Assembly (NCBI GenBank): GCA_947475875.1
Contig: CANJME010000007.1
Span: forward strand, 1-64,000
Length of the DNA: 64,000 nt
Reading direction: 5' to 3'
Origin: Caulobacteraceae bacterium
Lineage (GTDB): Bacteria > Pseudomonadota > Alphaproteobacteria > Caulobacterales > Caulobacteraceae
In this document: in pieces, positions 14,080 through 32,567 of the stretch
Layout: each line of letters opens with the position of its first letter
Numbering within the stretch: the first letter of the stretch is position 1
The notes under the pieces: generated by a model
What the model was told of the DNA's origin: nothing
Seen by the model: the letters and a program-made list of their open reading frames with translations, nothing else
Databases searched by the model: none
Made by a program: the position numbers and the translations under genes

Positions 14080-14541
14080 TCAACCACCCGGCCTGCTCAG
14101 CACCGCCTCAACGTCGATCGTCCCGTCGCCCGCGGCGGTGGCTGTCAGGTTGGTCACCGCGATGGCCTTGTGTTCGGCGAGGCGCCGCGTCCAGGCCAGG
14201 AACTTCGTCGGGTCGGTTCCTTCCAGGTGGATGGTCACCCCGACATCACCGCTGGCCTCCATCTTCCCCACGCGCACGCCGGCCTCCCCAGCGCTCGCAA
14301 CGACCTCGCTTTCCAGCGGGCTCACCTTGTCGAGTTTTGCAAGATCGGCCCGAACCCGTTCAGCCTCAACGGTAACGCGCTGCGCGCTCTCCAGCCGCAC
14401 CGCCGCCGCGTTCCGCCACGAACCGAGCGGCGCCCAGAGTCCATACCAATAAACCAGCGCCCCAATGAGCACCGCCAGGGCGCCGATCATCCAGCGCTCA
14501 CGAGGGCTTCGCTCGTCCCACAAGGCGGCGGGCAATGTCAT
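14080..14541 (-). CDS. gspM: Type II secretion inner-membrane protein GspM
   Basis: A 153-residue bitopic membrane protein: short cytosolic N-terminus (ERSPRERWMIGALAVLIGAL), one transmembrane helix at about residues 17-35, then a periplasmic ferredoxin-like domain. Weakly conserved, but it is the last gene of an intact gsp operon and overlaps gspL by ATGA, exactly the expected position. GspM stabilises GspL in the assembly platform. Confidence 0.9.
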   Translation of the reverse strand: MTLPAALWDERSPRERWMIGALAVLIGALVYWYGLWAPLGSWRNAAAVRLESAQRVTVEAERVRADLAKLDKVSPLESEVVASAGEAGVRVGKMEASGDVGVTIHLEGTDPTKFLAWTRRLAEHKAIAVTNLTATAAGDGTIDVEAVLSRPGG

Positions 14542-15608
14542 GGCGCACGCGTCAGGGTCAGGTCGGTCGAAATCCGCCCCCCTGCCTCGGTCGATCCGTC
14601 TTCCCGCAACGCAAAGCCGCTGGGGCCAAGGGCCCCCGCCAGTGTCGCGACATCGGAATAGTTGTCGTGCGTCAGCGTCAGCCGCATCGCGCCGCCTGAG
14701 CGGTAGGAAAGCGATTGCAGCTTTGCGCCCGGCAGCCGCTCCAGCGCCTTGAACACCACCGCCATCGCCTCCGAAAAGTCCCGCCCCTGCTGCATCGATG
14801 CGCCCATGGAAATCAGGCGCCGGGTATCGCCCCTGGCGGCGGTCGCGCGTTCGACCCGCCCGACCGCCATGTCATCCCGCGCAATATAGGCTGCCCGGAT
14901 CAGCAGCGGCGAGACCAGCGCCAGGCCTGCCAGCACCGCGGCGCGCCGCCAGCTGCCTGAGGCGGTCTTCCCCATCTTGTCGAACGCGCCCTGCAACAGA
15001 TTGACCGGTGCTCCGGAGGCGGCGCTAGCTGCGAAATGGCTGTCGATGCGGCTAGACTCATCCGCAACATCCAGCGTCAGGCCAGTGATGAGTTGCGCGG
15101 CCAACTCCGGCTCGACGGTGAAGGCGAGGCCGCGGCCTCGGACGGCCAGAGCTTCGCCGAGGTTGGCGGCGACCAGGCCATCGCCCTCCGGCGCTGGAAG
15201 CATCAGGTGGTCGGGGACGACGGCGTCGGGAACGACGCCGAGCGCACGGGCCTGATCGAGCAGGGCCGCAAGCCGCGCCTTGGCGATGATCGAGACAGGG
15301 CGAAGGCCGCCGGCGCCAACCGGGCCGAGGGCGAAGTGGAGATCCTCTCGCGGCTGAGCCAGTTCGTCCTGCAGCATCATGGCGGCGGCGGTCCGGGCCT
15401 GGCCGGGGCTGGCGGCCTTCAGAGCGATCCAATGGGTGGTCACGTCGACGCCGGAGATGACGAGCAGCGTAGTTCCCTTGAACGGAGCGCTCGCGCCCTG
15501 TCCGCCCAGCGTTCCACGCGTGGCGATCATGCCCGCCGCGTCGACCACCAGGTAGGGCGACGGCTCCCCGGCGCGGGGCGCGAGCAGGACGAGGCGGGTC
15601 AGGCTCAT
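14538..15608 (-). CDS. gspL: Type II secretion inner-membrane protein GspL
   Basis: A 356-residue protein with an actin-like cytosolic domain (roughly residues 1-215), one membrane helix near 220-240 and a periplasmic domain. It connects the GspE ATPase to the platform. Sequence identity to known GspL is low by eye; the call relies on the domain layout plus position between gspK and gspM with ATGA overlaps on both sides. Confidence 0.9.
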   Translation of the reverse strand: MSLTRLVLLAPRAGEPSPYLVVDAAGMIATRGTLGGQGASAPFKGTTLLVISGVDVTTHWIALKAASPGQARTAAAMMLQDELAQPREDLHFALGPVGAGGLRPVSIIAKARLAALLDQARALGVVPDAVVPDHLMLPAPEGDGLVAANLGEALAVRGRGLAFTVEPELAAQLITGLTLDVADESSRIDSHFAASAASGAPVNLLQGAFDKMGKTASGSWRRAAVLAGLALVSPLLIRAAYIARDDMAVGRVERATAARGDTRRLISMGASMQQGRDFSEAMAVVFKALERLPGAKLQSLSYRSGGAMRLTLTHDNYSDVATLAGALGPSGFALREDGSTEAGGRISTDLTLTRAP

Positions 15609-16540
15609 TCGTCGGCCGTCCAGCGGCGGGCGCGCAGGGCGGTCTGGCCGTCGCCCACCTGTTCGATCAGCGAGGTCATCAGCACTTCACCGCCGGCGTA
15701 GTCTGCGTGAGCGGTGAGCTCGTAGTAGCGGCTGCGAACCGAAAGCTGCCCGGCGGGAGCGCGGGCGACGCCGCGCAGCGAGGGCTCGGCGAGGAAGGCC
15801 GCCACATCGCGCCACCCGCCCTTGGCCCGCGCCGCCAGGGCCCGGCGCCCGGCGTCGGGCGAGATCGCCCCGTCGGAGAGCGCGGTCAGCAGCACGGCCT
15901 TGTCGGCGGCGAGTTCATTGACGTTGAGCATCGTGGTCTCTGGCACGGGCAAGGCGCAGACATAGGGGCGGACCAGGCGGTAGACCGCCGCGTCATAGCC
16001 GCGAACGGCGCGCAGTTCGCTGGTTTCCTGAAGCAGCGCGCCCGAGGTGCGGTAGCCGGCATAGGCGTCATCTTCGGCGCCCGCCGTCGAGCGCCCGCTG
16101 TCGCTGTCGATCCAGTCGGAGAGGGCCTCCGAAAGCTCCTGTCCCCTCCGCTCCGGCAGGCCGAGCGTGGTCAGCAGCGCCCGGTATTGCCTTAACGACC
16201 CTTCGCGCCGCAGCCAGTGACCAGGCGATCCCTCGACTACGCTGTTGAGATTGAAACAGGCGCCGCCATCCTCCAGACGCGCCCGCACGGTCCCGCCCTC
16301 GACCGGGTAGCTCCGCCACTCGCCGGTCAGGCCTGGCCCCAGTCCCTGCGCCAGCTGGCCCCGCGCCAGGGTCTCCGCGCCGAGCGCATACCAGCGGCCC
16401 TGTTCGAGCGCCTCGGCATTGGTGGTTCGCCGCACCGAAAAGCGGATGTCGTCCAGCACCGCCGAGGCCAGCGCCGCCATCACCGCGACGAGGAGGAGCA
16501 CGGTCAGGAGGGCCGCGCCGCGTTTGGAGGGTGGCTTCAT
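15605..16540 (-). CDS. gspK: Type II secretion minor pseudopilin GspK
   Basis: A 311-residue large pseudopilin. The N-terminus has a short leader ending in Gly before AALLTVLLLVAVMAALASAV; as usual for GspK, the Glu at mature position 5 is absent, fitting its role at the pilus tip. The central region CFNLNSVV and SDWIDSD are family landmarks. Start taken at the ATG at 16540 overlapping the gspJ stop. Confidence 0.94.
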   Translation of the reverse strand: MKPPSKRGAALLTVLLLVAVMAALASAVLDDIRFSVRRTTNAEALEQGRWYALGAETLARGQLAQGLGPGLTGEWRSYPVEGGTVRARLEDGGACFNLNSVVEGSPGHWLRREGSLRQYRALLTTLGLPERRGQELSEALSDWIDSDSGRSTAGAEDDAYAGYRTSGALLQETSELRAVRGYDAAVYRLVRPYVCALPVPETTMLNVNELAADKAVLLTALSDGAISPDAGRRALAARAKGGWRDVAAFLAEPSLRGVARAPAGQLSVRSRYYELTAHADYAGGEVLMTSLIEQVGDGQTALRARRWTADE

Positions 16541-17067
16541 GCGCCCTCCCCCGCCACCAGAAAGAGCTGGCTGAGACCGCCCAGTCCGGCGACGGTGACG
16601 TCGAGCCGCAGGGCGGCCGGCAGGGCGCCTTCGGGCGGCGTCTCGGCCCAGCCGTCGGGACCGAGATAGAACACCCGGGCCGCCGAAACCTTGTCGATCA
16701 GCACCTGGGGCGCGCCCGGCGCGGCGCCACTGAGCGCCGGTCCCGAAACCCGCTCCAACCGACCTTCCACGGCCCGATACTCGACAGCCTGCATTGAAGG
16801 ACGGGCCGCACCGTCGGGATTTTCCCATCCTCGGCGGACTAGGCGCAGCAGAACCGGTCCGTCGCCGGGAGCCACTTGCACCGCCTGCGACAGATCGGCG
16901 CCGATCAGCGCACGGGCGGTCTGCACCTGGCCTGTGCGGGCGGTATGGACGCTGACCGTGGCCTGGTTGTCGACCGCCAGGCGCAGCAGAGCGACGCCGC
17001 CCGAGCCCACGAGACCAAAAATGAACAGGGCGACCAGCACCTCGATGAGAGAAAACCCGGCCTTCAT
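16537..17067 (-). CDS. gspJ: Type II secretion minor pseudopilin GspJ
   Basis: A 176-residue pseudopilin with prepilin-peptidase site MKAG/FSLIEVLVALFIFG. GspJ forms the tip complex with GspI and GspK that primes pseudopilus assembly. Both ends overlap neighbours by four bases, so the gene is translationally coupled. Confidence 0.93.
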   Translation of the reverse strand: MKAGFSLIEVLVALFIFGLVGSGGVALLRLAVDNQATVSVHTARTGQVQTARALIGADLSQAVQVAPGDGPVLLRLVRRGWENPDGAARPSMQAVEYRAVEGRLERVSGPALSGAAPGAPQVLIDKVSAARVFYLGPDGWAETPPEGALPAALRLDVTVAGLGGLSQLFLVAGEGA

Positions 17068-17414
17068 TTCAGCACGCTGAGCCGGGCCAGAACCTGATTG
17101 CCACCGGCCTCGCGTACGGCGATGTCGACGCGGGCAAGGCCGCGCTCACCCGCCGGCGCGGCGGTTTGGGTCCAGTCCCACAGACGTCCGGCCTGGCGTT
17201 CCTGGCCGCGCAGTTCGCCTGACGCCACGCGCGGCCCAACCGCCACCGCGACCGCGCGGTTGCCGGCGACGATGCCCGCCAGGGTCCGCTGCTCGACCAC
17301 CCCGGCCGAGCGGGTGTTTTCCCCGGCCAGATGCGTCAGCGCTATGCCGGCCAGGCCCAGCACCGCCATAGCGACCATGACTTCCAGCAGAGAAAACCCT
17401 TGCTTAGGCGCCAT
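17064..17414 (-). CDS. gspI: Type II secretion minor pseudopilin GspI
   Basis: A 116-residue pseudopilin with the type IV prepilin site QG/FSLLEVMVAMAVLGLAG. It is in the expected place between gspH and gspJ and of the expected small size. The start overlaps the 3' end of gspH by 11 bases. Confidence 0.93.
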   Translation of the reverse strand: MAPKQGFSLLEVMVAMAVLGLAGIALTHLAGENTRSAGVVEQRTLAGIVAGNRAVAVAVGPRVASGELRGQERQAGRLWDWTQTAAPAGERGLARVDIAVREAGGNQVLARLSVLK

Positions 17415-17844
17415 CGACGACGACCTTTCCGCTCGGATCGACGCTCACCCCGGCCGAACGCCGTCCGTCGGTGAGGACCACGCTGGCGGGGTCCGCCAGA
17501 CCGATGGCGTCGAAGACGATCCGCTCGCCGCTCTGCGAAGCCGCATGCACCCCGTTCGCCCACCGGCCCGCCTGGAACGAGCGGCCGGTCAGAGGTTTGC
17601 GCACACCGCCCTGCAGACTCTCGAAAGCATAGCCCGTAGGCGTCAGCCGAACCTCCACCGTCCGGCTGGTCAGGATCGCCTCGTCCCTTGCGCGGGTCAG
17701 CGCCGCGCCGAACCGGGCCGCATCGTGGGTGACGCCGCCCGCTTGCGGCGAGGTCAGCACCACCATGCCGGCGGCGAGGCCGACGATGGTGACGGTCACC
17801 ATCACCTCGACCAGCGAAAACCCGCGCCTACCAGTTCCCGACAT
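17404..17844 (-). CDS. gspH: Type II secretion minor pseudopilin GspH
   Basis: A 146-residue pseudopilin beginning MSGTGRRG/FSLVEVMVTV; the cleavage Gly, Phe+1 and Glu+5 are all present. The body contains the ARDEAILTSRTVEVRL motif typical of GspH. The reading frame is open far upstream, but the ATG at 17844 is the only one that gives a short leader. Confidence 0.93.
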   Translation of the reverse strand: MSGTGRRGFSLVEVMVTVTIVGLAAGMVVLTSPQAGGVTHDAARFGAALTRARDEAILTSRTVEVRLTPTGYAFESLQGGVRKPLTGRSFQAGRWANGVHAASQSGERIVFDAIGLADPASVVLTDGRRSAGVSVDPSGKVVVDGA

Positions 17845-18268
17845 CGGCGTTCGACCCCTCTCCGCCCGGCTTGCCGTCGGCGCCCAGTGTATAGACATCG
17901 AAGCCGCCCGAGCGGCCGGGAACCGCATAGAGATAGGGTCTTCCCCAGGGGTCTTCTGGCAGCCGTTTGATATAGCCGCCGGGCCGGTAAAGTTCCGGGT
18001 GGGCGAGCCCGGCGGGCGCACGGGCGAGCGCGGTCAGCCCCTGTTCGCCGGTCGGATAGGCAAGGTTCTCCAGCTTGTAGGTCTCAACCGCCTGTTCGAG
18101 GGCGGCGACGTCGGTCCGCGCCTTTTCGGTGCGGGCGCGGTCAAGGCTCGGCAACACATTGAGCAGCACCACGGTGGCGAGGATGCCGATGATGACCACC
18201 GCCACCATGATCTCGACCAGGCTGAAACCGGCTTTCGAATTCGCGCTGGGCACGGCTGCTCTCCTCAT
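17828..18268 (-). CDS. gspG: Type II secretion major pseudopilin GspG
   Basis: A 146-residue major pseudopilin. The leader ends KAG before FSLVEIMVAVVIIGILATVV, and the C-terminal half carries the GspG signatures AYPTGEQGLTAL, GGYIKRLPEDPWGRPYLY and GADGKPGGEG, which supplies the calcium-binding loop. This subunit polymerises into the piston-like pseudopilus. Confidence 0.96.
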   Translation of the reverse strand: MRRAAVPSANSKAGFSLVEIMVAVVIIGILATVVLLNVLPSLDRARTEKARTDVAALEQAVETYKLENLAYPTGEQGLTALARAPAGLAHPELYRPGGYIKRLPEDPWGRPYLYAVPGRSGGFDVYTLGADGKPGGEGSNADVGNW

Positions 18269-19467
18269 CTCAAGGTCAGGGTGTCGAGTTGCAGGATAGG
18301 CAGGAGGATCGAGAGCACGATCGTCCCGACCACTACGCCCATGACGATGATGATCGCCGGCTCCAGCAGACTTAGGGCCGCCTGCGAGGTGGTCGCCACA
18401 TCGCGCTCCAGATAGTCGGCGGCGGCGTCGAGCAAGGCGGGAAGTTCTCCCGAGGCCTCGCCGCTGGCGGTCATATGGACGAGCACCGGCGGGAATACAC
18501 CAGCCTTGCGCATGGCGGCGGAGAGCGAGCCGCCCTCGCACACCGCGCCGGCCAGCTCCAGGGTGGCGGCTCTGAGGGCCCGATTTCGCACGGTCGGCGC
18601 AGCGAGGCGCAGGCCTTCCAGCATCGGCGCGCCCGAAGCCGACATGGCCGCGAGCGTGCGAGCCAGCCGCGCGGCGTTGTGGGCGCGGATGAGGCGGCCT
18701 GCGCCCGGTAAGCTCAGCAGCCAGCTGTCGAAGGCAAGGCCAGGTCCGGGCCTCGCCAGCAGCCGGAGTGCGCCAAAGCCTGCGGCAACGACGACGAGGG
18801 CCGCCAGCCAACCCCAGGCGGCCAGGATCCGGGAAAGGCCGATGACGATCCGGGTCAGCGGCGGCAAGGCCTGGCCCAGGGTGTCGAATTGATCGACGAT
18901 CTTGGGGACCACGAAGATCATCAGGGCGGTGGTAACGGAGAGGGCCACGAGGGTCAGGGCGGCAGGATAAACCAGCGCGGCGGTGAGGCGGCTGCGTGAA
19001 GCCTGTTCCCGCTCGGTGAGGTCGGCCAGCCGGTCCAATATCCTCGGCAGGGCGCCCGTGCTTTCGCCGGCCGCGATCATGGCGCGAACGAGCAGAGGGA
19101 AGGCATCGCCCTGTCGCGCCATGGCTTCCGACAGCCGCCCGCCCTCGCGGACGCCGGCATGGACCGCAGCCAGAAGGGTGCGGATGCGCGGGTTCTCCTC
19201 CTGGGCCGTGAGCGTCGCCAGCGCCTCTTCCAGCGGTGAGACTTTGATCAGTGTGGAGAGCTGGCGCATGACCAGGGCCAGCGTCGCGGGATCGAGTTTC
19301 CGGCGCCCGGGCGCGGCCCGGTCATCGTCATTGGCGGCCGCGAGTTTCACCGGCGTCAGCCGCCGGCGCACCAGCCTTGCACGGGCCTCGGCCTCGTCCT
19401 GGGCGCGGACGACGCCGGTGGCGCTCAGACCCTCGGCGTCGAGGGCGAGATATTCAAACCGCGCCAT
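18265..19467 (-). CDS. gspF: Type II secretion inner-membrane platform protein GspF
   Basis: A 400-residue polytopic protein with two repeated cytosolic helical domains (each with a PLLVRAMIAAGESTGALP or PVLVHMTASGEASGELP block) and three membrane helices. It is the core of the assembly platform. The ATG at 19467 sits six bases after GGAGG in GGAAGGAGGTGATC, a near-perfect anti-16S match lying inside the gspE 3' end. This would favour strong independent initiation. Confidence 0.96.
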   Translation of the reverse strand: MARFEYLALDAEGLSATGVVRAQDEAEARARLVRRRLTPVKLAAANDDDRAAPGRRKLDPATLALVMRQLSTLIKVSPLEEALATLTAQEENPRIRTLLAAVHAGVREGGRLSEAMARQGDAFPLLVRAMIAAGESTGALPRILDRLADLTEREQASRSRLTAALVYPAALTLVALSVTTALMIFVVPKIVDQFDTLGQALPPLTRIVIGLSRILAAWGWLAALVVVAAGFGALRLLARPGPGLAFDSWLLSLPGAGRLIRAHNAARLARTLAAMSASGAPMLEGLRLAAPTVRNRALRAATLELAGAVCEGGSLSAAMRKAGVFPPVLVHMTASGEASGELPALLDAAADYLERDVATTSQAALSLLEPAIIIVMGVVVGTIVLSILLPILQLDTLTLR

Positions 19468-20914
19468 GATCACCTCCTTCCGGACGGGTGACGCGCAGGG
19501 CCTCTTCGACGGTTGTGAGGCCGTCCTGAACCGCGGCCTTTGCCGCCTTGGCCAGAGGCTTGGCCTCTCTGAACGCAGCCTTGATGATGGCGGCTTCCGA
19601 AGCGCTGGCGCCGATCAGCGCCCGAACCTCGTCGGTCACGCCAATCGCTTCATAGAGGCCGACCCGGCCGACATAGCCGGAGCCCTTGCAGGCCTCGCAA
19701 CCGACCGGCCGCCAGACGCTGCGGCCCGGCTTGACGCCGAGCAGCGACGCCAGCCCGTCGGCGGGATGTTCCCCGCGGCACCGCGGGCAGAGCCGCCGGA
19801 CCAACCGCTGGGCCACGATCAGCCGGAGACTCGAGGCCAGCAGGAAGGGCTCGATGCCGAAGTCGCGCAGCCGGGTGATGGCGCCCACCGCATCATTGGT
19901 GTGCACGCTGGTGAGGACCAGATGTCCGGTCAGGCTGGCCTGGACAGCGATCTGGGCGGTCTCGGCGTCGCGCACCTCGCCGACCATGACCACATCGGGG
20001 TCCTGACGCAGGATGGCGCGCAGACCCGCCGCGAAGGTCATGCCGACCTTCGGATTGACCTGGGTCTGGCCGACGCCCTCGACCGCGTATTCGACCGGGT
20101 CTTCAATGGTCAGGATATTGCGGGCGGTTTCGTTGAGCGCCGACAGCGCGGCATAGAGCGTGGTGGTCTTGCCCGAGCCGGTCGGGCCGGTGACCAGGAT
20201 GATGCCATTCGGCTCGCGCAGGGCGGTCCGAAAGGCGGTCAGCACGGCCTCGCTCATGCCGAGGTCACCCAGCGCCAGGCTCGTCTGATCCTTGTCGAGG
20301 ATGCGCAGCACCACCCGCTCACCGGCCCGGGCCGGCAGGGTGGAAACCCGCACATCCAGCAGCTTGCCGCCGAGCGACAGACCGATGCGCCCGTCCTGCG
20401 GCAGGCGCCGTTCGGCGATATCCAACCGGGCCATGACCTTGATGCGCGAGGCGATCAATTGGGTCAGCCGGGCCGGCAGGCGGACGGTCTCGCGCAGGAC
20501 GCCATCAACGCGCAGACGCACGATCAGATCATTTTCGAACGGCTCGATATGGATGTCGGAGGCGCCCAGGCGCACGGCCTCGGCGATCAGGCCGTTGATC
20601 AGCCGGATGACCGGCGCGTCATCCTGGCCGTCGAGCAGGTCAGCGGCGGGATCGACGAGGGATTCCAGCCCCCCTGCCAGCGCAAGGCTGTCCTCCAGCC
20701 CGGCGCTCCGGCCTCCGTAGACTTCCGAAAGCCTGTTTTCGAAAGCGCGGCGACCCAGCGGCTCCACATCCAGCGGACGGCCGAGCGCCCGGCGCGCCTC
20801 GATCAGGGCGGCGGGATCGGCGCCCTCGCGCAAACCCACGCTCGCCCGCTCGCCCAAGGAGAGGAGGACCACTCCCGAGCGCTTGGCGAAGGCGTAGGGA
20901 AGTTCGGGACTCAT
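19454..20914 (-). CDS. gspE: Type II secretion ATPase GspE
   Basis: A 486-residue cytosolic hexameric ATPase that powers pseudopilus growth. Walker A is GPTGSGKTTT, the Asp box is ILTIEDPVEYA, Walker B is LRQDPDVVMVGEVRD and the His box LTGHLVLTSVHTND. The zinc-binding tetracysteine is intact (CPRC then CEAC), which marks GspE rather than PilT-type ATPases. Overlaps gspD by four bases. Confidence 0.97.
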   Translation of the reverse strand: MSPELPYAFAKRSGVVLLSLGERASVGLREGADPAALIEARRALGRPLDVEPLGRRAFENRLSEVYGGRSAGLEDSLALAGGLESLVDPAADLLDGQDDAPVIRLINGLIAEAVRLGASDIHIEPFENDLIVRLRVDGVLRETVRLPARLTQLIASRIKVMARLDIAERRLPQDGRIGLSLGGKLLDVRVSTLPARAGERVVLRILDKDQTSLALGDLGMSEAVLTAFRTALREPNGIILVTGPTGSGKTTTLYAALSALNETARNILTIEDPVEYAVEGVGQTQVNPKVGMTFAAGLRAILRQDPDVVMVGEVRDAETAQIAVQASLTGHLVLTSVHTNDAVGAITRLRDFGIEPFLLASSLRLIVAQRLVRRLCPRCRGEHPADGLASLLGVKPGRSVWRPVGCEACKGSGYVGRVGLYEAIGVTDEVRALIGASASEAAIIKAAFREAKPLAKAAKAAVQDGLTTVEEALRVTRPEGGDHGAV

Positions 20915-22842
20915 GGCGCGGGGGGCTGGGCCTTGAGGTAATCGCGCACGGCCGCCTCCAGCGCGCTCTTGGCGTCCGGCCGGGCGGCGGCCTCATCAGC
21001 GCGCATATACTCGTAACGCTGGGCGGCCAGGACCTCGGCGTCGCGAGCGGACTTCAGAATGGTCGGCCGGATGAAAACCATAAGGTTGCGGCGAGTGCGA
21101 TTGGTGCTGCTGGACCTGAACAGGCCGCCGATGCCGGGCAGGTCACCGAGGCCCGGAACCTTGTCGGCGCCGGTAGTGTCCGACTGATCGAGCAGGCCGC
21201 CGAGCACGACGATGTCGCCGTCGTCCACCATGACGTTGGTCTCAAACTCGCGCTTGTTGAAGATCGGGTCGGTGGTCGCCCCGGCGGCCTGGGCCGCCAC
21301 GCTAGAGACCTCCTGCTTGATGGCGAGCGTAATGCCGCCGCCGGCGTTGATCTGGGGCGTCACCCGCAGCTGCACGCCGACATCGCGCCGCTCCACCGTG
21401 CGGAACGGGTTGGAGTTGCTGGCGCTCAGCACCTCGCCGGTGGTGACCGAGATTTCCTGGCCGACCGAGAGGTTGGCTTCCTTGTTGTCCAGCGTAACGA
21501 TCGACGGAGTCGAGAGCAGGTTCGAGGCCGAGTCACTCTTCACCGCATTGATGATGGCGCCGATGACCACATCGCCCGCGCGGCCGCCGACGCCGCCCAC
21601 GAGGCCGGGCGTGGTGTTGATGGAGTTGACGGCGTTGGTGGTCAGGGCGGCCTGCGCCGCGCTGCCGGGCGTCAGATTGTTCTGGCCCGCCGCCGCCGAA
21701 ATGACGCCCATCAGGCTGGGCGAGCCGGCCGGGAAGTTGGTCACCACCCCGCCCGAGCCGCCGCCGAGGCCAAACTGGACGCCGAGGTTCTGCGCCAGGG
21801 TGTCGGAGATCTCGACGACGATGGCGGTGACCAGCACCTGCTGGCGGCGCACGTCCAGCTGGCGGATCACGCCGGCAAGTTCGGCCTGGGTTTTGGGATC
21901 GGCGCTGATGACCAGGGCGTTGCCGCCCTCGAACAGCGCCACGCTGGGCGAGCGCGGGCCGGACCGGATGGCCGCGGGCGCAGGCGCTGCGCCGGCGGCG
22001 GCGGGCCCACTTTGCTGCGGCGCCTGGCCGATCATTTGCTGCAGCACCGGCAAGAGGTCCTTGGCGCTGGCATTTTCCAGCCGCACCACCTGCACTTCGG
22101 CATTGGAGGGCTCGCGGGCGTCGAGCTCTCGGATGATCGCCTGGGCCTGGGCGACCAGAACCGGATCGCCGCGCAGTACGATGGCGCGCCCGCCGGGGGC
22201 CGCCGCCAGGGCCAGCCGAGGCGCCGGCCGCGCCGCGCCGCCCGCGGACGGCGGCGAGATCAAAGGCCCGGCGGCCTCGATAACCTCACGGGCCGTTGAG
22301 TTCTGCAGTTCGACGGTCGTCAGCTCCGTTCGGTCCTGGTCGATCTGGTCGATCAGCCCGGCGATCCTCCCGACGTTGTCGGCATAGTCGACGACGATCA
22401 GCACATTGCCCGGTGCGGCCAGTGCAACGCCGGACTTTCCGATCAACGGTCGCAGCGTCTGGGCCGCGTCGGCGGCGTCAAGGGTCTTGAGGAAAAACAG
22501 GCGCGTGGCGAAGCCGGCCGGCGCGCTGGCGGCGCCCTCTTCCGGCGCTATGCGGAAGGTGTTGGGTCCAGCCGGGATGACCACGAGGCCGTTGGCGCGC
22601 AAGGTCGTCTGCATCAGCTCGAATAGCTGATCGCGTGAGAGCGGCCGGTCGCTGACGACCGTGACCGTGCCCTGCACCCGGGGATCGACGATGAGGGTGC
22701 GGCCGCTCGCCCGCGCCACGTCCTGCACAAAGACGCGGATGTCGGCGTTTTGCAGGTTGAGCGCTTGGGATTGCGCGTGCGCGGCGACCGGCCCGAAGGC
22801 CAGGCCGAGGCTGAGAGCGAGAGCGGCGGCCTTAAGTCTCAA
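20911..22842 (-). CDS. gspD: Type II secretion outer-membrane secretin GspD
   Basis: Outer-membrane channel of the T2SS. After a signal peptide (KAAALALSLGLAFGPVAAHA) come the N0 domain (LNLQNADIRVFVQDVARASG), N1-N3 ring-building domains interrupted by a Pro/Ala-rich insert, and the C-terminal secretin domain with VPGLGDLPGIGGLFRSSS. I place the start at the TTG at 22842, because GGGAGGGAG lies just upstream and it gives a normal leader; an earlier in-frame TTG at 22878 adds 12 residues that do not look like a signal. No gspS pilotin is nearby. Confidence 0.95.
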   Translation of the reverse strand: MRLKAAALALSLGLAFGPVAAHAQSQALNLQNADIRVFVQDVARASGRTLIVDPRVQGTVTVVSDRPLSRDQLFELMQTTLRANGLVVIPAGPNTFRIAPEEGAASAPAGFATRLFFLKTLDAADAAQTLRPLIGKSGVALAAPGNVLIVVDYADNVGRIAGLIDQIDQDRTELTTVELQNSTAREVIEAAGPLISPPSAGGAARPAPRLALAAAPGGRAIVLRGDPVLVAQAQAIIRELDAREPSNAEVQVVRLENASAKDLLPVLQQMIGQAPQQSGPAAAGAAPAPAAIRSGPRSPSVALFEGGNALVISADPKTQAELAGVIRQLDVRRQQVLVTAIVVEISDTLAQNLGVQFGLGGGSGGVVTNFPAGSPSLMGVISAAAGQNNLTPGSAAQAALTTNAVNSINTTPGLVGGVGGRAGDVVIGAIINAVKSDSASNLLSTPSIVTLDNKEANLSVGQEISVTTGEVLSASNSNPFRTVERRDVGVQLRVTPQINAGGGITLAIKQEVSSVAAQAAGATTDPIFNKREFETNVMVDDGDIVVLGGLLDQSDTTGADKVPGLGDLPGIGGLFRSSSTNRTRRNLMVFIRPTILKSARDAEVLAAQRYEYMRADEAAARPDAKSALEAAVRDYLKAQPPAP

Positions 22843-22919
22843 GATCGCGCTCCCTCCCCATTCGGCGCCGGCGTTCAAGGTCTGAACAAAAGCACGGACA
22901 GCGCCCTGCCCAAAGCCTT

Positions 22920-23339: not shown

Positions 23340-23398
23340 AACGACGGCCAGAGCCAGTTCGACCAGCAGCCTCAGCCGTGAGGAGGCGCCCGCCAGGA

Positions 23399-24604: not shown

Positions 24605-24671
24605 TTTACGCCCCCATCACCGTTTTTTGTGAATTGGGGCGATACTAGACCCGGCGGGCCGCCATCGGCAA

Positions 24672-26315
24672 CTAGGCGTCAGTCAGGCGGCTCGATCCGG
24701 CGGCCACCGCGAATTTCTTGCGGGTGGAAAGCACGCCGTTCCTGTCGGTGACCTTGTCCAAAACCTTGAACTCGCTCTGCCAGCGCTCGGGCGTGACGTC
24801 GCAGATCAGATATCCGCGCTGATGATTGATAAACTTCAGCTCGGCGTTGGCGCCGACCAGGGGATTGGAGCCGCCCGGATCGTCCTGGCCGTTGCCGCCC
24901 GAGGTGACCGAGGTGGACACGAACTCGATGCCGATCGGCTTTACGCCCGGCGTGCGGCCGTCGAGATGCAGCTCGCCCGCATAGTTCACATGCTCATCGC
25001 CGGTCAGGACGATGACGTTCGGGGTCTTGTGTTGCTGCATGCGGGCCAGGACCCGGTTGCGCGGCGTACGGTACCCGGCCCAGCTGTCGATGTTGTAGCG
25101 CAGCGCCGGACCCGGATCGCGGTCGAGGTCCATCATCATCACCTGCTGGGCGAGGACATTCCAGCGCGCCTTCGAGGCGTCGAGCCCGGCGCCGAGCCAG
25201 GCTTCCTGCCGCTGGCCCATGAACTGCGCTGTCGTTGCCGAGACCTGTTCGAGGGTGCATCCAGCCGCCTGGTCGTTGCAGGGCTGGTTGCTCCGGAACT
25301 GGCGGGTGTCGAGGAAATTGAGGTTCATCAGCGTGCCGTACTGGGCACGGCGATAGATCTGGATGGCGGGACCGTTCGGCATCGAACTCGCGCGCAGCGG
25401 CATGTGCTCATAGTAGGCTTGGGCGGCCGCCTGGCGGCGCAAGGCGAAGAGCGCTGGCGGCGTACCATTTTCGTCCCACTGCGAGGCCCAGTTGTTCTCG
25501 GTCTCATGGTCGTCCCAGACCGTGTACCAGGCGTGGGCGGCATGAGCGGCTTGAAGGTCGGGATCGGATTTGTACTGGGCGTAGCGGCGGCGGTAGTCGT
25601 CGACACTGTAGATTTCACCACCGAAATGGGCGCGGGGATTGGGCGCCGCGGCGGCAGGCGCGCCAGCCGCCGGAGCGGTGGCCACCAAGGCCGCGGCCGG
25701 CGCCTGACCACCACCGCCGCCCTCATAGATGTAGTCGCCGTAGCAGAAGACGAAATCGAGGTCCTCGGCGGCAAGATACTTGTGGGCGGTGAAGAAGCCG
25801 GCCGGATAGCTTTGGCAGCCGGCGACGCCAAACTTCGAATTGGCAAGGTTGGTCGCCAGGGCGGGTGCGGTCTTGGCCCGGCCTGTCGGGCTCTGCACGC
25901 CGCCGGCGCGGAACCGGTACCAATAAGGCCGGGCGGGCATCAGACCGGTGACCTCGACATGCACCGAGTGGGCGAGGAAAGGCGAGGCCTGGGTCTTGCC
26001 GGTCTGGACGATGGTGGCGAAACGCTCGTCGCTGGCGACTTCCCAGTCCACGTCGATGCGGGATGACGGCATGCCGAATCCGACCTGAAACGGCTCGGGC
26101 GCAAGGCGCGTCCAGATGACAAAGCCGTCGGGCGCAGGATCACCGGTGGCGATGCCAAGTTGAAAGGGGTTCTTCGAGAACGTCGGCGTCTGTTGTTGGC
26201 CGAGGGCGCGCCCGCCCATCAACGGGGCGGCTATGAAGACACCGGCGGCCGCGCCGAACCGGCGAATGACCATGCGGCGGGTGTGTTCAAGCCGCTCGTT
26301 GTAGGAATCGGTCAT
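24672..26315 (-). CDS. phoD: PhoD-family alkaline phosphatase/phosphodiesterase
   Basis: A 547-residue periplasmic or secreted enzyme that releases phosphate from phosphodiesters and monoesters with calcium and iron. A twin-arginine leader is visible (VIRRFGAAAGVFIA). The PhoD N-terminal domain is followed by metal-site motifs GDYIYE, WDDHETENN and LTGDEHVNYAGEL. Between GDYIYE and the next core helix lies an insert of about 30 Gly/Ala/Pro residues (199-228), next to the active site. A Pho-box-like element stands about 45 bases upstream. Tat export followed by T2SS transit is the usual route for such phosphatases. Confidence 0.95.
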   Translation of the reverse strand: MTDSYNERLEHTRRMVIRRFGAAAGVFIAAPLMGGRALGQQQTPTFSKNPFQLGIATGDPAPDGFVIWTRLAPEPFQVGFGMPSSRIDVDWEVASDERFATIVQTGKTQASPFLAHSVHVEVTGLMPARPYWYRFRAGGVQSPTGRAKTAPALATNLANSKFGVAGCQSYPAGFFTAHKYLAAEDLDFVFCYGDYIYEGGGGGQAPAAALVATAPAAGAPAAAAPNPRAHFGGEIYSVDDYRRRYAQYKSDPDLQAAHAAHAWYTVWDDHETENNWASQWDENGTPPALFALRRQAAAQAYYEHMPLRASSMPNGPAIQIYRRAQYGTLMNLNFLDTRQFRSNQPCNDQAAGCTLEQVSATTAQFMGQRQEAWLGAGLDASKARWNVLAQQVMMMDLDRDPGPALRYNIDSWAGYRTPRNRVLARMQQHKTPNVIVLTGDEHVNYAGELHLDGRTPGVKPIGIEFVSTSVTSGGNGQDDPGGSNPLVGANAELKFINHQRGYLICDVTPERWQSEFKVLDKVTDRNGVLSTRKKFAVAAGSSRLTDA

Positions 26316-26358
26316 GGTCCACTCCTTGTCGGTTTGAACTCAGAGGTATCGCCGCGGG

Positions 26359-26387
26359 ATGACAGGTCTGTGCGGCGTAGATGACAG
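26359..26387 (-). promoter_or_regulatory. Pho-box-like element upstream of phoD
   Basis: The minus strand carries CTGTCAT twice, 22 bp apart, with a weaker heptamer (GCCGCAC) in phase between them. Pho boxes bound by PhoB are CTGTCAT-type heptamers spaced by 11 bp. The element lies between pstA and phoD, so phoD may have its own PhoB-dependent promoter besides reading from pst. Confidence 0.75.
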
Positions 26388-26395
26388 TTTGAAAA

Positions 26396-27265
26396 CTAGC
26401 CCTTTCGTCCCCGCGACATGTACGCGTGACCCAGCCGGCTGGTGACGTTCAGGACCAGCACGCCGAAGGTAATGATAAGGGCTCCTGCCCAGGCCAGGTC
26501 AACCCATTCCTGATATGGGCTCTGGGCATAGCGGTAGATTGCCATCGGCAGGCTGGACATCGGCTTGGACATGTTGAGCGAAAAATTGAAGCTGCCGAAG
26601 GAGGTGACGATCAGCGGCGCGGTTTCGCCGGCGATCCGCGCCACTGCCAGCAGCAGCCCGGTCAGAATGCCGCCGAACCCGGCCGGCAAGACGATGCTCC
26701 AGATGGTGCGGGCCTCGCGGGCGCCGAGTGCGATTGAGGCTTCGCGATAACCGTCCGGCACCAGTTTCAGAATGTCCTCGGTGGTCCTGGCCACGACCGG
26801 CATGGCCAGGAGCGCGAGCGCGACAGATCCGGCATAACCGGAAAAGCCGCCGGTGGGCCTGACGACGACTTGATAGACAAACAGACCGATCAGGACCGAC
26901 GGTGCGGTCAGAAGGATGTCGTTAACGAAGCGCACGAGCGTCGCGAACCGGCCGGTGCGGCCGACTTCGGAGAGGTACACCCCGACCGCGACGCCAAGCG
27001 GTCCGCCCAGGGCGATACCACCCAGCACCTGCAGCAGACTGCCCATGATGGCGTTGGAAAGTCCGCCGTGCTGCCCCGGCGTCTTCATCGGCTGGGTGAA
27101 GGCCTCGAGGGAAAGCCCGACCGTTCCCTTTTGCAACAGGGTGAAGAGGATCACGGCCAGAACGATCAGCCCGACGAGCGCCGCCAGAATGCAAAGACCG
27201 TTCATCACCGCCGAGACGATTCGCCGGCGGGCATAGTTTCCAGGATTGAAAGGCCTCATGGTCAT
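26396..27265 (-). CDS. pstA: Phosphate ABC transporter permease PstA
   Basis: A 289-residue inner-membrane permease with six helices. The cytosolic EAA-type loop that contacts the ATPase reads YREASIALGAREARTIWSIVLP, and the ending ETAPLIVTSFGSFNFSLN is typical of PstA. Its ATG overlaps the pstC stop by four bases. No pstB ATPase gene follows; the next gene is phoD, so the ATPase must be supplied from elsewhere. Confidence 0.95.
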   Translation of the reverse strand: MTMRPFNPGNYARRRIVSAVMNGLCILAALVGLIVLAVILFTLLQKGTVGLSLEAFTQPMKTPGQHGGLSNAIMGSLLQVLGGIALGGPLGVAVGVYLSEVGRTGRFATLVRFVNDILLTAPSVLIGLFVYQVVVRPTGGFSGYAGSVALALLAMPVVARTTEDILKLVPDGYREASIALGAREARTIWSIVLPAGFGGILTGLLLAVARIAGETAPLIVTSFGSFNFSLNMSKPMSSLPMAIYRYAQSPYQEWVDLAWAGALIITFGVLVLNVTSRLGHAYMSRGRKG

Positions 27266-28218
27266 GCCATGCGCCCTTGTCTCAGCAGCATGCGAGCCGC
27301 CGCCAGCACGAGGAACGAGATCAAGAACAGGAAGAAGCCGAGCGCGAACAGGGCGGCCAGTTTGAGCGAGCCCTGCTCGGCGTCCGGGAACTCATTGGCA
27401 ATCACCGAGGCGATGCTGGAGGCGGGCGCGAAGAAACTGTCTGGCAGGCGGTTGGCGTTACCGATCACGAAAGTGACGGCCATGGTCTCGCCGAGCGCCC
27501 GGCCCAGGGCCAGGAACACCGCCCCGAACAGGCTGCCGCGCACGGCCGGAATGATGACGCCGACCAGAGTTTCCCACTTCGTGGCGCCCATGGCGTAGCC
27601 GCCGTCCTTGAGCAACTGGGGTGTGGTGAGCAACACATCCCGGGTTGCGGCCGCAATGAGGGGCAGGATCATGATGGCCAGAACGATCCCGGCGGTGAGT
27701 AGGCCCACGCCGAGCGGGGCGCCGGAGAACCAGTAGAAATTTCCGGCGGCGGGAATGAAGCTAAAGGTCTGGGTGAGCCACGGCTGCACCTGCGATCCCA
27801 TGGCCGGGGCCAGCACGAAGAAACCCCACATGCCGTAGACGAGGCTGGGGACCGCCGCGAGAAGCTCGATGGCGACCCCAAGGGGTCCGCGCAGGGGCCG
27901 GGGGCAGGTCTCGGTGAGGAAATAGGCGATGCCGAAACCCACCGGCCAGGCCAAGGCGATGGCGATGGCGGATGTGGCGAGCGTGCCGACAATCGCGGGC
28001 CCGGCGCCGTAGAGATCGCGCACTGGATCCCACTGATTGAGCCAGAGGAAGGCGGGGCCAAAGGCCGCAAAAGCGTCGCGGCCGGCCAGGAACAGAATGA
28101 TCAGGATCGCAGCCAGGGTGATCAGGACGATCGAGGCCGCCGTCCACAGCGATCCCTTGAGGATCGTATCGCCCCAGTGGTGGCGCTTTTGCATGCCGGG
28201 AGCTGTATCGGCGGTCAT
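27262..28218 (-). CDS. pstC: Phosphate ABC transporter permease PstC
   Basis: A 318-residue permease partner of PstA. Family landmarks are YGMWGFFVLAPAM, YAMGATKWETLVGVIIPA and ALGRALGETMAVTFVIGN. The ATG at 28218 is preferred; an earlier in-frame ATG at 28260 falls inside a strong hairpin that follows pstS and would add 14 Pro-rich residues. Confidence 0.95.
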   Translation of the reverse strand: MTADTAPGMQKRHHWGDTILKGSLWTAASIVLITLAAILIILFLAGRDAFAAFGPAFLWLNQWDPVRDLYGAGPAIVGTLATSAIAIALAWPVGFGIAYFLTETCPRPLRGPLGVAIELLAAVPSLVYGMWGFFVLAPAMGSQVQPWLTQTFSFIPAAGNFYWFSGAPLGVGLLTAGIVLAIMILPLIAAATRDVLLTTPQLLKDGGYAMGATKWETLVGVIIPAVRGSLFGAVFLALGRALGETMAVTFVIGNANRLPDSFFAPASSIASVIANEFPDAEQGSLKLAALFALGFFLFLISFLVLAAARMLLRQGRMA

Positions 28219-28249
28219 GTCGGGGCCTACCGGCGGGGGCAAAACAAAG

Positions 28250-28273
28250 GGGCGGGACATCGCTGTCCCGCCC
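28250..28273 (-). terminator. Hairpin between pstS and pstC (attenuator or processing site)
   Basis: GGGCGGGACA and TGTCCCGCCC form a perfect 10-bp stem with a four-base loop, followed on the minus strand by CCTTTGTTTTG. It lies 17 bases after the pstS stop. Such a structure lets the binding protein be made in excess over the permeases, either by partial termination or by protecting the pstS message. Confidence 0.75.
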
Positions 28274-28289
28274 GGTTGGGATACTCAGG

Positions 28290-29354
28290 TTAGCGGCAGC
28301 CTGTCCAGATGGCCTTGCCGGCGGGATCCTTCACCTGGCACCATTTCTGGCGAACCTGGTCCTGCACCGCGGCCGGCAGCATCACGTAGCGCAGCTGATC
28401 GGCGGCGGGCTTGCCGTTTTTGAAGGCCCAGTCGAAGAACTTCATGACCCGCAGCGAGGCCGCGGCATCGTTCGGATTCTTCGGCAGCAGGATGTAGGTC
28501 GGGCCGACGATCGGCCAGTTAGTGGCGCCGGTGGTGTTATTCATGCTGACCTGCATGTTCGGCGCATTGGTCCAGTTGACCGTGGCCGCAGCCGCCGCAA
28601 ACCCGGCCGCGCTGGGCTTCACGAACTGCCCCGACCGATTCTGCATCATCGGGGTCTGCATGTTGTTTTCAACGGCGTAGGCATACTCGACATAGCCGAT
28701 GCCGCCGCGGGTGTTACGAATTCCTCCCGCGACACCTGAGTTACCAGGACCACCGATTCCTGTCCGCCAGGCCACAGAATTTCCCGCGCCGAGGGCGGTG
28801 TTGAATGGCAAATTCACCGAGGCGATGTAGCTGGTGAAAATGTTGGTCGTGCCCGAGGAATCGGACCGATAGACCGGCGCAATGGCCAAGGCCGGCAGGT
28901 TGACGCCGGGATTGAGGGCGGTGATCGCCTTGTCATTCCACATGCGGACCTTGCCGAGGTAGATGTCGCCGACGAGGGGCCCGGTCAACTTCAGGGCGTT
29001 ACCGTCAACCCCCGGAATATTCACGGCCATGACGACGCCCCCGATTACGGCGGGAAATTGCAGAAGGTTCTGGCTCTGCAAGCGTTCCGGCGCAACCGCG
29101 GCATCGGAGGCGCCGAAGTTCACGGTCCGGTTCATGATCTGCGTAACCCCGGCGCCAGAACCAATCGCTTGGTAGTTCAAGCGGTCGCCGCTGGCGGTCG
29201 CATACTGTTCGGCCCAGCGCGTGTAGATTGGGGCCGGGAAGGTCGCGCCCGCGCCAGTGAATTCAGCCGCGAAGGCCGCAACCGCGCCAGCGGCAACGAT
29301 CGCTCCCAGCGCGCCGCCGACAATCCGTCGGGTCCAGGTTTTCGGGGTTTTCAT
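28290..29354 (-). CDS. pstS: Phosphate-binding protein PstS
   Basis: A 354-residue periplasmic receptor for the Pst high-affinity phosphate transporter. The signal peptide ends near AAFAA, and the mature protein opens with EFTGAGATFPAPIYTRWAEQY, the PstS hallmark; the phosphate loop YRSDSSGTTNIFTSY is intact. A clear Pho box lies 35-63 bases upstream of the ATG. First gene of a pstS-pstC-pstA set. Confidence 0.97.
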   Translation of the reverse strand: MKTPKTWTRRIVGGALGAIVAAGAVAAFAAEFTGAGATFPAPIYTRWAEQYATASGDRLNYQAIGSGAGVTQIMNRTVNFGASDAAVAPERLQSQNLLQFPAVIGGVVMAVNIPGVDGNALKLTGPLVGDIYLGKVRMWNDKAITALNPGVNLPALAIAPVYRSDSSGTTNIFTSYIASVNLPFNTALGAGNSVAWRTGIGGPGNSGVAGGIRNTRGGIGYVEYAYAVENNMQTPMMQNRSGQFVKPSAAGFAAAAATVNWTNAPNMQVSMNNTTGATNWPIVGPTYILLPKNPNDAAASLRVMKFFDWAFKNGKPAADQLRYVMLPAAVQDQVRQKWCQVKDPAGKAIWTGCR

Positions 29355-29388
29355 CTGAGTGCTCCTTCAGTCTCTCGTGCGAGTGTTT

Positions 29389-29417
29389 GCAACAGTTCCG
29401 TGACAGGTCCGTGACAG
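29389..29417 (-). promoter_or_regulatory. Pho box of pstS
   Basis: The minus strand has three heptamers in strict 11-bp phase: CTGTCAC, CTGTCAC and CTGTTGC, with four-base spacers GGAC and GGAA. This fits the PhoB consensus very well. It begins 10 bases after the porin stop codon, so pstS has its own promoter. Confidence 0.9.
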
Positions 29418-29426
29418 TCGGGCGCG

Positions 29427-30824
29427 CTACCAGTCGAACTGGGTGCGGAAGGTCACGGCCTTGATGGTGTTGTCCTTGTGGGTCGAGTTATTGACCGTGT
29501 AGTCGACGTCGGTCGACGAGACGTTCAGCTGAAACTTAACGTGGTCGATCGGCACCACGGTGACGCCGCCGGTCCAGCCCGAGGTAGTGTTGCGGTTCGC
29601 GCCGAAGGACGTGTCCGAAAGATCCAGCTTCTCGTAGCGGGCCGAGAGCAGGACGTGGCCGATGCCGCCGTCCGACCCGAAGGTGCGCAAGGGAACCACA
29701 TTTTTGAAGCTGCCGTCGGCGGCGTTATAGTTGCGGCTCTCGCCGGTGGGCGACCAGTAGAGATCGACGTAGTAGCCGCTCGCCGTCGCATCGATGCCGC
29801 GGCCGGTTTGGTACTGGCCGTATTCGGCCTGCGCACCGAAGGCGTTGTGCTGCAGGACCAGTTCGCCGCCGTAGTACATGTCCTGGCCGAAGCTGGCGGT
29901 GCCGGCGTTGTTGGAGGCCTTGTTGGAGAGGGCGCCTGGCGAATAGGAGAGCGCGGTGCGGCCGCCACCGGCCGTGTTACCGGCGTCGCGGTAACGGGCC
30001 GTGGCGCCGAAAGCCACCAGGTTCAGCCCTTCCGGCGTCCGCTCATAAATCGGCGCGAAGGTGCCGCGGGTGATCAGGAACCCGGCTTCCGATCCGAACG
30101 AAGCGGTATCGAGCTTTTCCGGACCGTCGTTGGACTGCAGGCCGACGCCCCAGGACCAGTTGCCGCCGTTCATAGTGTAGGTCACTCCGGGCTTCTTGCC
30201 GAAGCCCCCGGCGCTGATCAGGAACGAACGCTCATTGAACGGCGTGGTCAGTGAAGAGTCGCGATCCTCCAGCGGCGAGACCGAGTTGGTGATCCCGACG
30301 ATGATCGATGAGTCGGCGGTAAGAGCATATTCCAGATAGAGGTCGTCGGCCTTGATTTGCACGGCCTGGTTGGCGCCGGCGCCGCTCGAGCCCGAGCCGT
30401 TGCCGAAGGTGAAGTCGAGCTTGACGTTGTAGCGCCACTGCTCCGACAGGCGGCCGTCGACGCCAAGGAAGGCGCGGCGGGCGTAGGAGCGCACGCCCGA
30501 CTCGAACGTGCCGGTTCCCGCCGCGTTAGCGTAGTCAGCGTCGGTGTAGGCGATGTCGTACATGAAGCGGCCGTTGACATGGAAACGGCGGTCTTCCTCG
30601 CGGGTCTCGGTCGCGCCATTCCAGCGCGTCGAGGCGGTGATGCAGGGGCCCGACGGCACCGGGCAGTTGGGAATGGGCTGCATCGGCGGCTGGGCTTCGG
30701 GTTGAGTCTCCGGCGCCGGAGCCCGATCGGGGCGCAGAGCGTCTTGCGCATTGGCGGCGCCCGCTGTCAGGGTCGTGGCGAAGGCGGCGAAGGCCGCGCC
30801 CACGAGGAGTCCGTGTTTGGTCAT
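29427..30824 (-). CDS. Phosphate-selective porin O/P family
   Basis: A 465-residue outer-membrane beta-barrel. A signal peptide ends near AANA, a Pro-rich N-terminal linker follows, and the barrel carries alternating aromatic strands with the terminal ...FRTQFDW, an aromatic C-terminal residue as used for BAM recognition. OprP and OprO relatives form trimeric channels for phosphate or pyrophosphate. Location directly before pstS and opposite a PhoD gene supports a phosphate role. The Pho array upstream (30927-30988) probably drives it. Confidence 0.9.
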   Translation of the reverse strand: MTKHGLLVGAAFAAFATTLTAGAANAQDALRPDRAPAPETQPEAQPPMQPIPNCPVPSGPCITASTRWNGATETREEDRRFHVNGRFMYDIAYTDADYANAAGTGTFESGVRSYARRAFLGVDGRLSEQWRYNVKLDFTFGNGSGSSGAGANQAVQIKADDLYLEYALTADSSIIVGITNSVSPLEDRDSSLTTPFNERSFLISAGGFGKKPGVTYTMNGGNWSWGVGLQSNDGPEKLDTASFGSEAGFLITRGTFAPIYERTPEGLNLVAFGATARYRDAGNTAGGGRTALSYSPGALSNKASNNAGTASFGQDMYYGGELVLQHNAFGAQAEYGQYQTGRGIDATASGYYVDLYWSPTGESRNYNAADGSFKNVVPLRTFGSDGGIGHVLLSARYEKLDLSDTSFGANRNTTSGWTGGVTVVPIDHVKFQLNVSSTDVDYTVNNSTHKDNTIKAVTFRTQFDW

Positions 30825-30926
30825 GATATTGATAACCCCTTCTCGATTTGGCCGTAGCGGCCTTCAGGCCTTGGGGGCTCTCAACGCGGCCCCACCGGCG
30901 ATTGACCGAGGGGTTAATGAGGACTC

Positions 30927-30988
30927 ATGTAACGAACGCGACGGTTCACCGACGGAAATGTGACGTTTCGGACTCGGATTTGTGACAG
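30927..30988. promoter_or_regulatory. Six-unit phased Pho-box-like array between porin and second phoD
   Basis: Read on the minus strand, six heptamers start exactly every 11 bp: CTGTCAC, CCGAGTC, ACGTCAC, CCGTCGG, CCGTCGC, GTTACAT. The first and third are close to the PhoB half-site, the others are weaker, but the phase never slips over 62 bp. It sits in the only gap between two divergent phosphate-related genes and could serve both. The distal end is 28 bases from the second phoD start. Confidence 0.65.
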
Positions 30989-31016
30989 CGCTGGGGATGG
31001 ATTTTTGGAAGGGCGC

Positions 31017-32567
31017 ATGGACAGACGGGAACTCTTCCTTGGCGGACTGGCCGCCGGCGCAAGTCTGGCGGCCTTTGGCGCGCCGTTCCGCGCCGCGGCC
31101 TCGGCGCCGCCGTTCACACTCGGCGTCGCGTCCGGTTCGCCGAGCCCGGACGGCTTTGTCATCTGGACCCGCATCGCCCCCGATCCCGCCGCGCCGGATG
31201 GCATGGGCGGGGTGACGACGCCGGCGCAGGTCGCCTGGGAGGTCGCCGAGGACGAAGCCATGCGCCGCATAGTCCGGCGCGGGTCTGCCATGACCACTCC
31301 GGCCGAGGCCCACGCCTTGCATGTCGAGATCGGTGGCCTGAAGCCCGATCGTCCCTACTGGTACCGCTTCACGGCCATGGGCGAGATGAGCGCGATCGGC
31401 CGGGCGCGAACCGCCCCGGCCCGCGGCGCGCGCAACAGCCGGCTTAAGCTGGCGATGGCCTCGTGCGCGCACTGGGAAACCGGCTGGTTCTCGGCCTACC
31501 GGCACATGGCGGCCGAGGACCATGACCTGACGCTGTTCCTCGGCGACTATATCTATGAGTACGGCAACCCGGCGACCCGAACCAACCTCGTTCGCCGCGT
31601 CCCCATGGTCGCCGAGTGCCGCACGCTGGTGGAATACCGCAACCGCTATGCGCTCTATCGCACCGATCCGGACCTGCAGGCGCTGCATGCGGCCGCCCCG
31701 TGCCTGGCCACCTGGGACGACCACGAGGTGCAAAACGACTACAGCGCCGACTTCTCACAGATCGGCACAATCCTCGTGGAGGAGTTTCGCGCTCGGCGCC
31801 TGGCGGCCTACCGGGCTTTCTACGAACACATGCCGCTGCGCCCGAGCGTGTTGGCCAATGCCCCGGAGATGCGTATCTACGGCCGGTTCGACTATGGCGC
31901 CCTCGCCCGCATCACCGTGCTGGACGGCCGCCAGTACCGCAGCATCCAGCCCTGTACCGTCGGCGGATCACGCCGCGGCCACGTGGCGCCCAACACCTGC
32001 GCCGACCTGACCGACCCAGGCCGCTCCATGCTGGGCATGGATCAGGAACGCTGGCTCTACGATGGCTTCAAGACCGGCCGCGCCCGCTGGAATGTCATCG
32101 CCCAGGACCTGCTGGTCGCGCCCCTTGCGCAAAAGACAACCGACGGTCAGCCCGGAACCTTCACCGAGGGCTGGTCGGGCTATGACGCCAACCGCGGGCG
32201 CATGCTGAACGCCATCGCCACGAGCCGGCTCAATAACCCGGTGTTCTTCGGCGGCGACATGCACGCCTATTTCACCGCAGATCTGAGGCGCAATGGCTTC
32301 ACCGGCCCCACCATCGCCACCGAATTCATCGGAACATCCGTCACCTCGGACAATGCCGCCGACAGCCTGGCGTCGACGTTGCCCGACAACCCGCACATCA
32401 AGTTCTTCGATAACCGCCATCACGGGTACATGACGGCGGAGCTGACGCCCTCGCGGATGGAAACCGCCTTCCGCGTGGTCTCCGACCGCAGCGACCCCAG
32501 GGCCACGGTCTCGACCTTGAAACGCTATGGCGTGGAGAACGGCCGGCCAGGCGCGGTCGAAATCTAG
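31017..32567 (+). CDS. phoD: PhoD-family alkaline phosphatase (second copy)
   Basis: A 516-residue PhoD enzyme. The leader MDRRELFLGGLAAGASLAAF is a twin-arginine signal with RRELFL. Catalytic and metal motifs are LGDYIYEYG, WDDHEVQND and GGDMHAYFTADL. It lacks the Ala/Pro insert seen in the first copy and is clearly divergent, so this is not a recent duplication. The ATG at 31017 follows GGAAGG. Its last bases overlap the end of a convergent gene. Confidence 0.95.
   Translation: MDRRELFLGGLAAGASLAAFGAPFRAAASAPPFTLGVASGSPSPDGFVIWTRIAPDPAAPDGMGGVTTPAQVAWEVAEDEAMRRIVRRGSAMTTPAEAHALHVEIGGLKPDRPYWYRFTAMGEMSAIGRARTAPARGARNSRLKLAMASCAHWETGWFSAYRHMAAEDHDLTLFLGDYIYEYGNPATRTNLVRRVPMVAECRTLVEYRNRYALYRTDPDLQALHAAAPCLATWDDHEVQNDYSADFSQIGTILVEEFRARRLAAYRAFYEHMPLRPSVLANAPEMRIYGRFDYGALARITVLDGRQYRSIQPCTVGGSRRGHVAPNTCADLTDPGRSMLGMDQERWLYDGFKTGRARWNVIAQDLLVAPLAQKTTDGQPGTFTEGWSGYDANRGRMLNAIATSRLNNPVFFGGDMHAYFTADLRRNGFTGPTIATEFIGTSVTSDNAADSLASTLPDNPHIKFFDNRHHGYMTAELTPSRMETAFRVVSDRSDPRATVSTLKRYGVENGRPGAVEI

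Follow-up and report, generated by a model that had tools for sequence, protein, structure and literature searches.

Type II secretion systems (T2SSs) are usually studied as virulence machines, and both their regulation and their clients are hard to predict. In Caulobacter crescentus, elpS lies directly upstream of the gsp genes and is strongly induced by phosphate starvation (PMC2996285), and a later transcriptome places the T2SS in the PhoB regulon (PMC11208175), so that the kind of link between T2SS and phosphate considered here is already known. The T2SS is dispensable for bringing ElpS to the surface and required for its release, probably via a secreted protease (PMC2996285); the precedent invoked in a sequence-only reading of the present locus, that C. 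crescentus secretes a lipoprotein by its T2SS, is therefore a slight misreading. In poor medium, C. crescentus gspE and gspL are up only 1.7-fold and GspL protein is unchanged, and the gsp genes are expressed in rich medium (PMC2996285). In Pseudomonas fluorescens, the PstS-like gene psp is Pi-induced but its same-strand neighbor hxcR is not (PMC2225411), which is the main caution against taking adjacency as coregulation. A text search for pst and T2SS gene clusters yielded four papers, none of which, to go by the titles, is about a pst–T2SS island.

The window analyzed here is a 64,000-nucleotide stretch of a contig from a Caulobacteraceae genome of 2.85 Mb in 49 contigs. Reading from 30824 to 14080 on the minus strand, Pfam and NCBIfam profiles identify a Porin_O_P porin, pstS, pstC, pstA, phoD, an SGNH-like gene, and gspC–M, which bears out the gene list and order of the sequence-only reading. 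The stretch given in that reading ends at 32567 and takes in a second, divergent phoD; this gene had been overlooked, as had the fact that pstB, phoU, and phoB are not among the island genes. The features are as follows.

30960..32567, plus strand, second PhoD-family phosphatase gene, divergent from the porin (NCBIfam NF058638, 459 bits, below the model's own cut-off)
29427..30824, minus strand, phosphate-selective porin, Porin_O_P (Pfam PF07396, 2.6e-35)
29389..29417, minus strand, predicted Pho box before pstS, three heptamers with 11-bp spacing (CTGTCACGGACCTGTCACGGAACTGTTGC)
28290..29354, minus strand, pstS (TIGR00975/NF008171, over cut-off)
27262..28260, minus strand, pstC (TIGR02138, over cut-off)
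26396..27265, minus strand, pstA (TIGR00974, over cut-off)
26359..26387, minus strand, Pho-box-like pair before phoD, CTGTCAT-N15-CTGTCAT
24672..26315, minus strand, phoD, exported alkaline phosphatase/phosphodiesterase (Pfam PF09423, 1e-103; twin-arginine-like leader by eye)
23399..24604, minus strand, SGNH-like exported protein of a rare family without a name (no Pfam over cut-off)
22920..23396, minus strand, gspC (PF11356; start codon uncertain)
20911..22878, minus strand, gspD, secretin (PF00263, PF03958, PF21305)
19454..20914, minus strand, gspE, ATPase (PF00437, PF22341)
18265..19473, minus strand, gspF (PF00482)
17828..18268, minus strand, gspG, major pseudopilin (TIGR01710, over cut-off)
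17404..17844, minus strand, gspH (PF12019)
17064..17414, minus strand, gspI (PF02501)
16537..17067, minus strand, gspJ (PF11612)
15605..16546, minus strand, gspK (PF21687, PF03934)
14538..15608, minus strand, gspL (PF05134, PF12693)
14080..14541, minus strand, gspM, final gene of the island (PF04612)
13954..14038, minus strand, tRNA-Leu(CAA), island boundary (ARAGORN)

The core T2SS genes C to M are present in order, including those for the secretin, ATPase, and pseudopilins, and the ORF table gives overlaps of a few bases between most adjacent gsp genes. The SGNH-like gene lies 67 bp from phoD, the gspC frame starts a few bases from the SGNH stop codon, and 41 bp separate the end of gspM from tRNA-Leu. 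Neither gspN/gspO nor a TonB receptor gene is found at the T2SS locus of the window; for the prepilin peptidase (GspO), two candidate Peptidase_A24 genes are found elsewhere in the genome, on contigs C6 and C38. The SGNH-like protein has its best Pfam hint in DUF4886 (E 0.02, below cut-off), and a PDB sequence match, 3ksu, is at chance level. Its relatives occur in only two genomes of the genome-contig scan, metagenome-assembled genomes (MAGs) labelled Caulobacteraceae and Hyphomonadaceae, and none was found in 384 other genomes of the class; an AlphaFold model from three sequences (pLDDT 32) is too poor for judging the fold. Two further features of the porin–pstSCA block are its flanking by two PhoD-family genes in opposite orientations (30960–32567 and 24672–26315) and a strong GC-rich hairpin with a T-rich tail (28250–28273) that straddles the pstC start and perhaps tunes pstS over pstCA.

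The Pst transporter of this genome is split across two loci, since the sole PstB over the family cut-off is encoded on contig C15, within a phoR–[Pho box]–pstB–phoU–phoB array (G000 L051:776-4237), and pstSCA occupies 26396–29354 of the window. The same split is found in G015, a genome of the same genus, whereas in G030 pstC and pstA precede pstB. Window PstC is 80% identical to that of G015 and 32% identical to that of G030, and the window Pst permeases differ from the long type present in the latter; window PstSCA and the C15 PstB possibly form a hybrid transporter.

Comparison with G015 defines how the two halves of the island meet. The two genomes are collinear on both sides, with the second phoD, the porin gene, and pstSCA at equivalent places on one side and tRNA-Leu followed by HlyD/MacB genes on the other, and on the tRNA side the DNA match sets in 2 bp from the gspM stop codon. 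The pstA–tRNA interval is only ≈0.6 kb in G015, without phoD, SGNH, or gsp genes, and ≈12.3 kb in the window, where it holds phoD–SGNH–gspC–M; the join is therefore a 12.3-kb difference between pstA and tRNA-Leu, and it is lineage-specific. Collinearity of both flanks with G015 makes mis-assembly of the MAG contig unlikely, and integration at the tRNA-Leu 3′ end is ruled out because the T2SS sits on the 5′ side of the tRNA. G030 has another layout at macAB. In G015, apparent scraps of a metallophosphoesterase gene and a PAP2-like gene follow tRNA-Leu (L012:7572-8000), so this locus appears to have lost material there as well. In GspD, GspE, and GspF trees, the window forms a long branch beside the other T2SSs of the family, and a clade of genera g1, g7, and g22, as in the RpoB tree, is not rejected by the T2SS data (p-AU 0.124). 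The GC content of the gsp genes (0.67–0.73) is slightly higher than that of the pst genes (0.63–0.66), which is not decisive, and trees and GC content are both compatible with gain of the block in the window or with its loss in G015. A join private to one genome, absent from G015 and, the g22 arrangement described below aside, from 77 other T2SS loci examined upstream, is what would be expected if the T2SS had simply landed, or been left by deletion, beside pstA, with its own phosphate-independent promoter and no control by the phosphate genes.

Regulatory sequences in the window bear on this in both directions. We used a Pho-box matrix (7-4-7, CTGTCAT repeats) hand-written from the published consensus, which ranks predicted sites and is no proof of binding. 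No site in the 64 kb scores higher than the box before pstS (21.3, p 0.001). The site before phoD is not canonical and is moderate by the standard matrix (p 0.03); it consists of a pair of perfect CTGTCAT heptamers with 22-bp spacing, unique in the window and arising in 0 of 100 shuffles. Of the two Pho-box-like sites claimed earlier, one is thus strong and one moderate. With the 7-4-7 matrix, no Pho box was found directly before the SGNH-like gene or gspC (best score before gspC 3.0, p 0.95), as a chance neighborhood would predict, and the psp/hxc precedent likewise documents adjacency without shared Pi control (PMC2225411). Arguing the other way, phoD, which stands between pst and gsp, bears a Pho-like site, and a scan of 22800–26500 for sigma-70-like promoters, an insensitive one, found none. 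Read-through from phoD would have 2.9 kb to cover to gspC, over an interval without a clear terminator (three terminator-like sites versus 2.6 expected).

We then placed the locus in the context of its family. Of 390 family genomes, 139, from four of 22 genera, encode a canonical GspD; in the window's own genus, one genome of three does so. In all, 78 T2SS loci of relatives were examined, 18 earlier and 60 new. The six loci laid out in detail share the order elpS-like lipoprotein, TonB-dependent receptor, and gspC onward, with elpS present in 61 and the TonB receptor in 62 of the 78. No ElpS was found anywhere in the window's genome, and phoD and the SGNH-like gene therefore take the place of elpS upstream of gspC, in the position that elpS and the TonB receptor occupy in relatives. 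Of the 72 family loci that could be tested, 31 carry a Pho box immediately ahead of gspC, well above expectation, although the counts come from related loci and are not independent events; by genus, the loci with a box are 14 of 16 in g7, 14 of 25 in g22, and three of 31 in g3, most of whose loci have no detectable gspC box. Controls gave two of 72 on the reverse strand, two of 72 in the gspC interior, and none of 72 in the upstream gene. Pho boxes in the T2SS loci of the family speak against a neighborhood formed by chance. Beyond these loci, G026 carries a PstS-like gene (L032:17946-18986) with its own Pho box (L032:19151-19168) just downstream of the T2SS genes, and G017, in which no canonical GspD was found, encodes an ElpS-like protein of 55% identity (L122; G017:C1:519979-521451).

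The first 18 relatives had no pstC near gspD, the two lying >100 kb apart or on different contigs, but the idea that the window is the sole pst–T2SS linkage of the family did not survive the 60 further loci. In four genomes of genus g22 (G660, G623, G666, and G669; L185–L189), one strand carries pstS–pstC–pstA–pstB–HTH–elpS–TonB receptor–gspC onward, the small HTH regulator between pstB and elpS being read by eye. Pho boxes with a score of at least 15 precede pstS in G666 and G669 and gspC in G623. PstC of these islands is ≈30% identical to window PstC, and GspD of the four genomes forms one clade inside g22, apart from the window. That the pst genes are unrelated and the genes between pst and gsp are different indicates that pst–T2SS linkage arose at least twice. 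The second, independent island argues more strongly than any other evidence for a functional link between pst and the T2SS, and a linkage in another genus with other pst genes is not what a fortuitous or selfish juxtaposition would lead one to expect; we regard such an origin for the window's island, with a T2SS outside the control of the phosphate genes, as unlikely.

We favor the reading that the T2SS of the window answers to phosphate, at a probability of roughly 60%, a judgment based on comparisons and a single Pho site of moderate quality. The earlier claim of phosphate induction gains indirect support: phosphate control is credible because of the gspC Pho boxes of the family, the g22 islands, and the C. 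crescentus PhoB regulon. Against it stands the lack of a box at gspC itself. Under phosphate control, the island would serve phosphate scavenging, with a complete core T2SS (gspC–M) placed behind pst and phoD. Low phosphate would generate PhoB~P, made with the C15 phoR–pstB–phoU–phoB locus, which would bind upstream of pstS, at the Pho box, and upstream of phoD, at the Pho-box-like pair; transcription would run through phoD–SGNH–gspC–M, with the pstS promoter perhaps contributing as well. The candidate T2SS clients would be exported PhoD, the SGNH-like protein, or both. The freed phosphate would enter via the porin and a Pst transporter with PstSCA encoded at this locus and PstB on C15. The role that a Pho box immediately upstream of gspC would play in relatives would fall, in the window, to operon fusion, the box being absent here. 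We infer phoD–SGNH–gsp cotranscription, PhoB binding, and the clients.

A variant in which only phoD, with or without the SGNH-like gene, is Pi-induced and gspC–M is weakly constitutive with partial read-through, so that the T2SS stands ready in rich medium and its clients are induced, would match the behavior of C. crescentus, where the gsp genes are expressed in rich medium, GspL is similar in rich and poor medium, and elpS is strongly induced (PMC2996285). The later transcriptome, with its T2SS as part of the C. crescentus PhoB regulon (PMC11208175), argues against it, and there is little room for a separate promoter before gspC because that gene opens beside the SGNH stop; we consider the variant improbable. 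Going beyond phosphate control of the window, we propose tentatively, at somewhat short of even odds, that the Caulobacteraceae T2SS is a standing phosphate-starvation arm to which selection has fused pst at least twice with unrelated cassettes, and that in the window the fusion supplanted an ancestral gspC Pho box, with PhoD/SGNH succeeding ElpS as clients. Gene order and recurrent Pho-box sequences predict, family-wide, phosphate as the signal and PhoD and the SGNH-like protein as candidate clients, and the two independent pst–T2SS fusions offer a natural test of whether linkage follows coregulation.

Set beside described systems, the Pseudomonas hxc T2SS and psp resemble the window in placing a T2SS beside the gene for a phosphate-scavenging exoprotein, but belong to another bacterial class, have no pst transporter in the cluster, and, in P. 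fluorescens, have an hxcR that is not Pi-induced. The g22 islands share co-directional pst genes leading into the T2SS and differ in their pst type, in including pstB, in carrying elpS and a TonB receptor instead of phoD and SGNH, and in the Pho box of their own, or weaker sites, that precede elpS/gspC. The C. crescentus elpS–TonB receptor–gspC–N locus is likewise a family-type T2SS tied to the phosphate-starvation response, with a gene for an exported phosphate-mobilizing protein directly upstream of gsp; PhoB control is a further likeness, which for the window is predicted from the comparison. Unlike C. crescentus, the window is without elpS, a TonB receptor, and gspN/gspO at the locus and without a gspC Pho box, and a porin–pstSCA–phoD–SGNH run leads into gspC. 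The link, earlier called unusually direct, is not wholly new as a linkage, given that C. crescentus elpS adjoins gsp; what is new here is the operon-style wiring, with phoD and SGNH replacing elpS and the TonB receptor.
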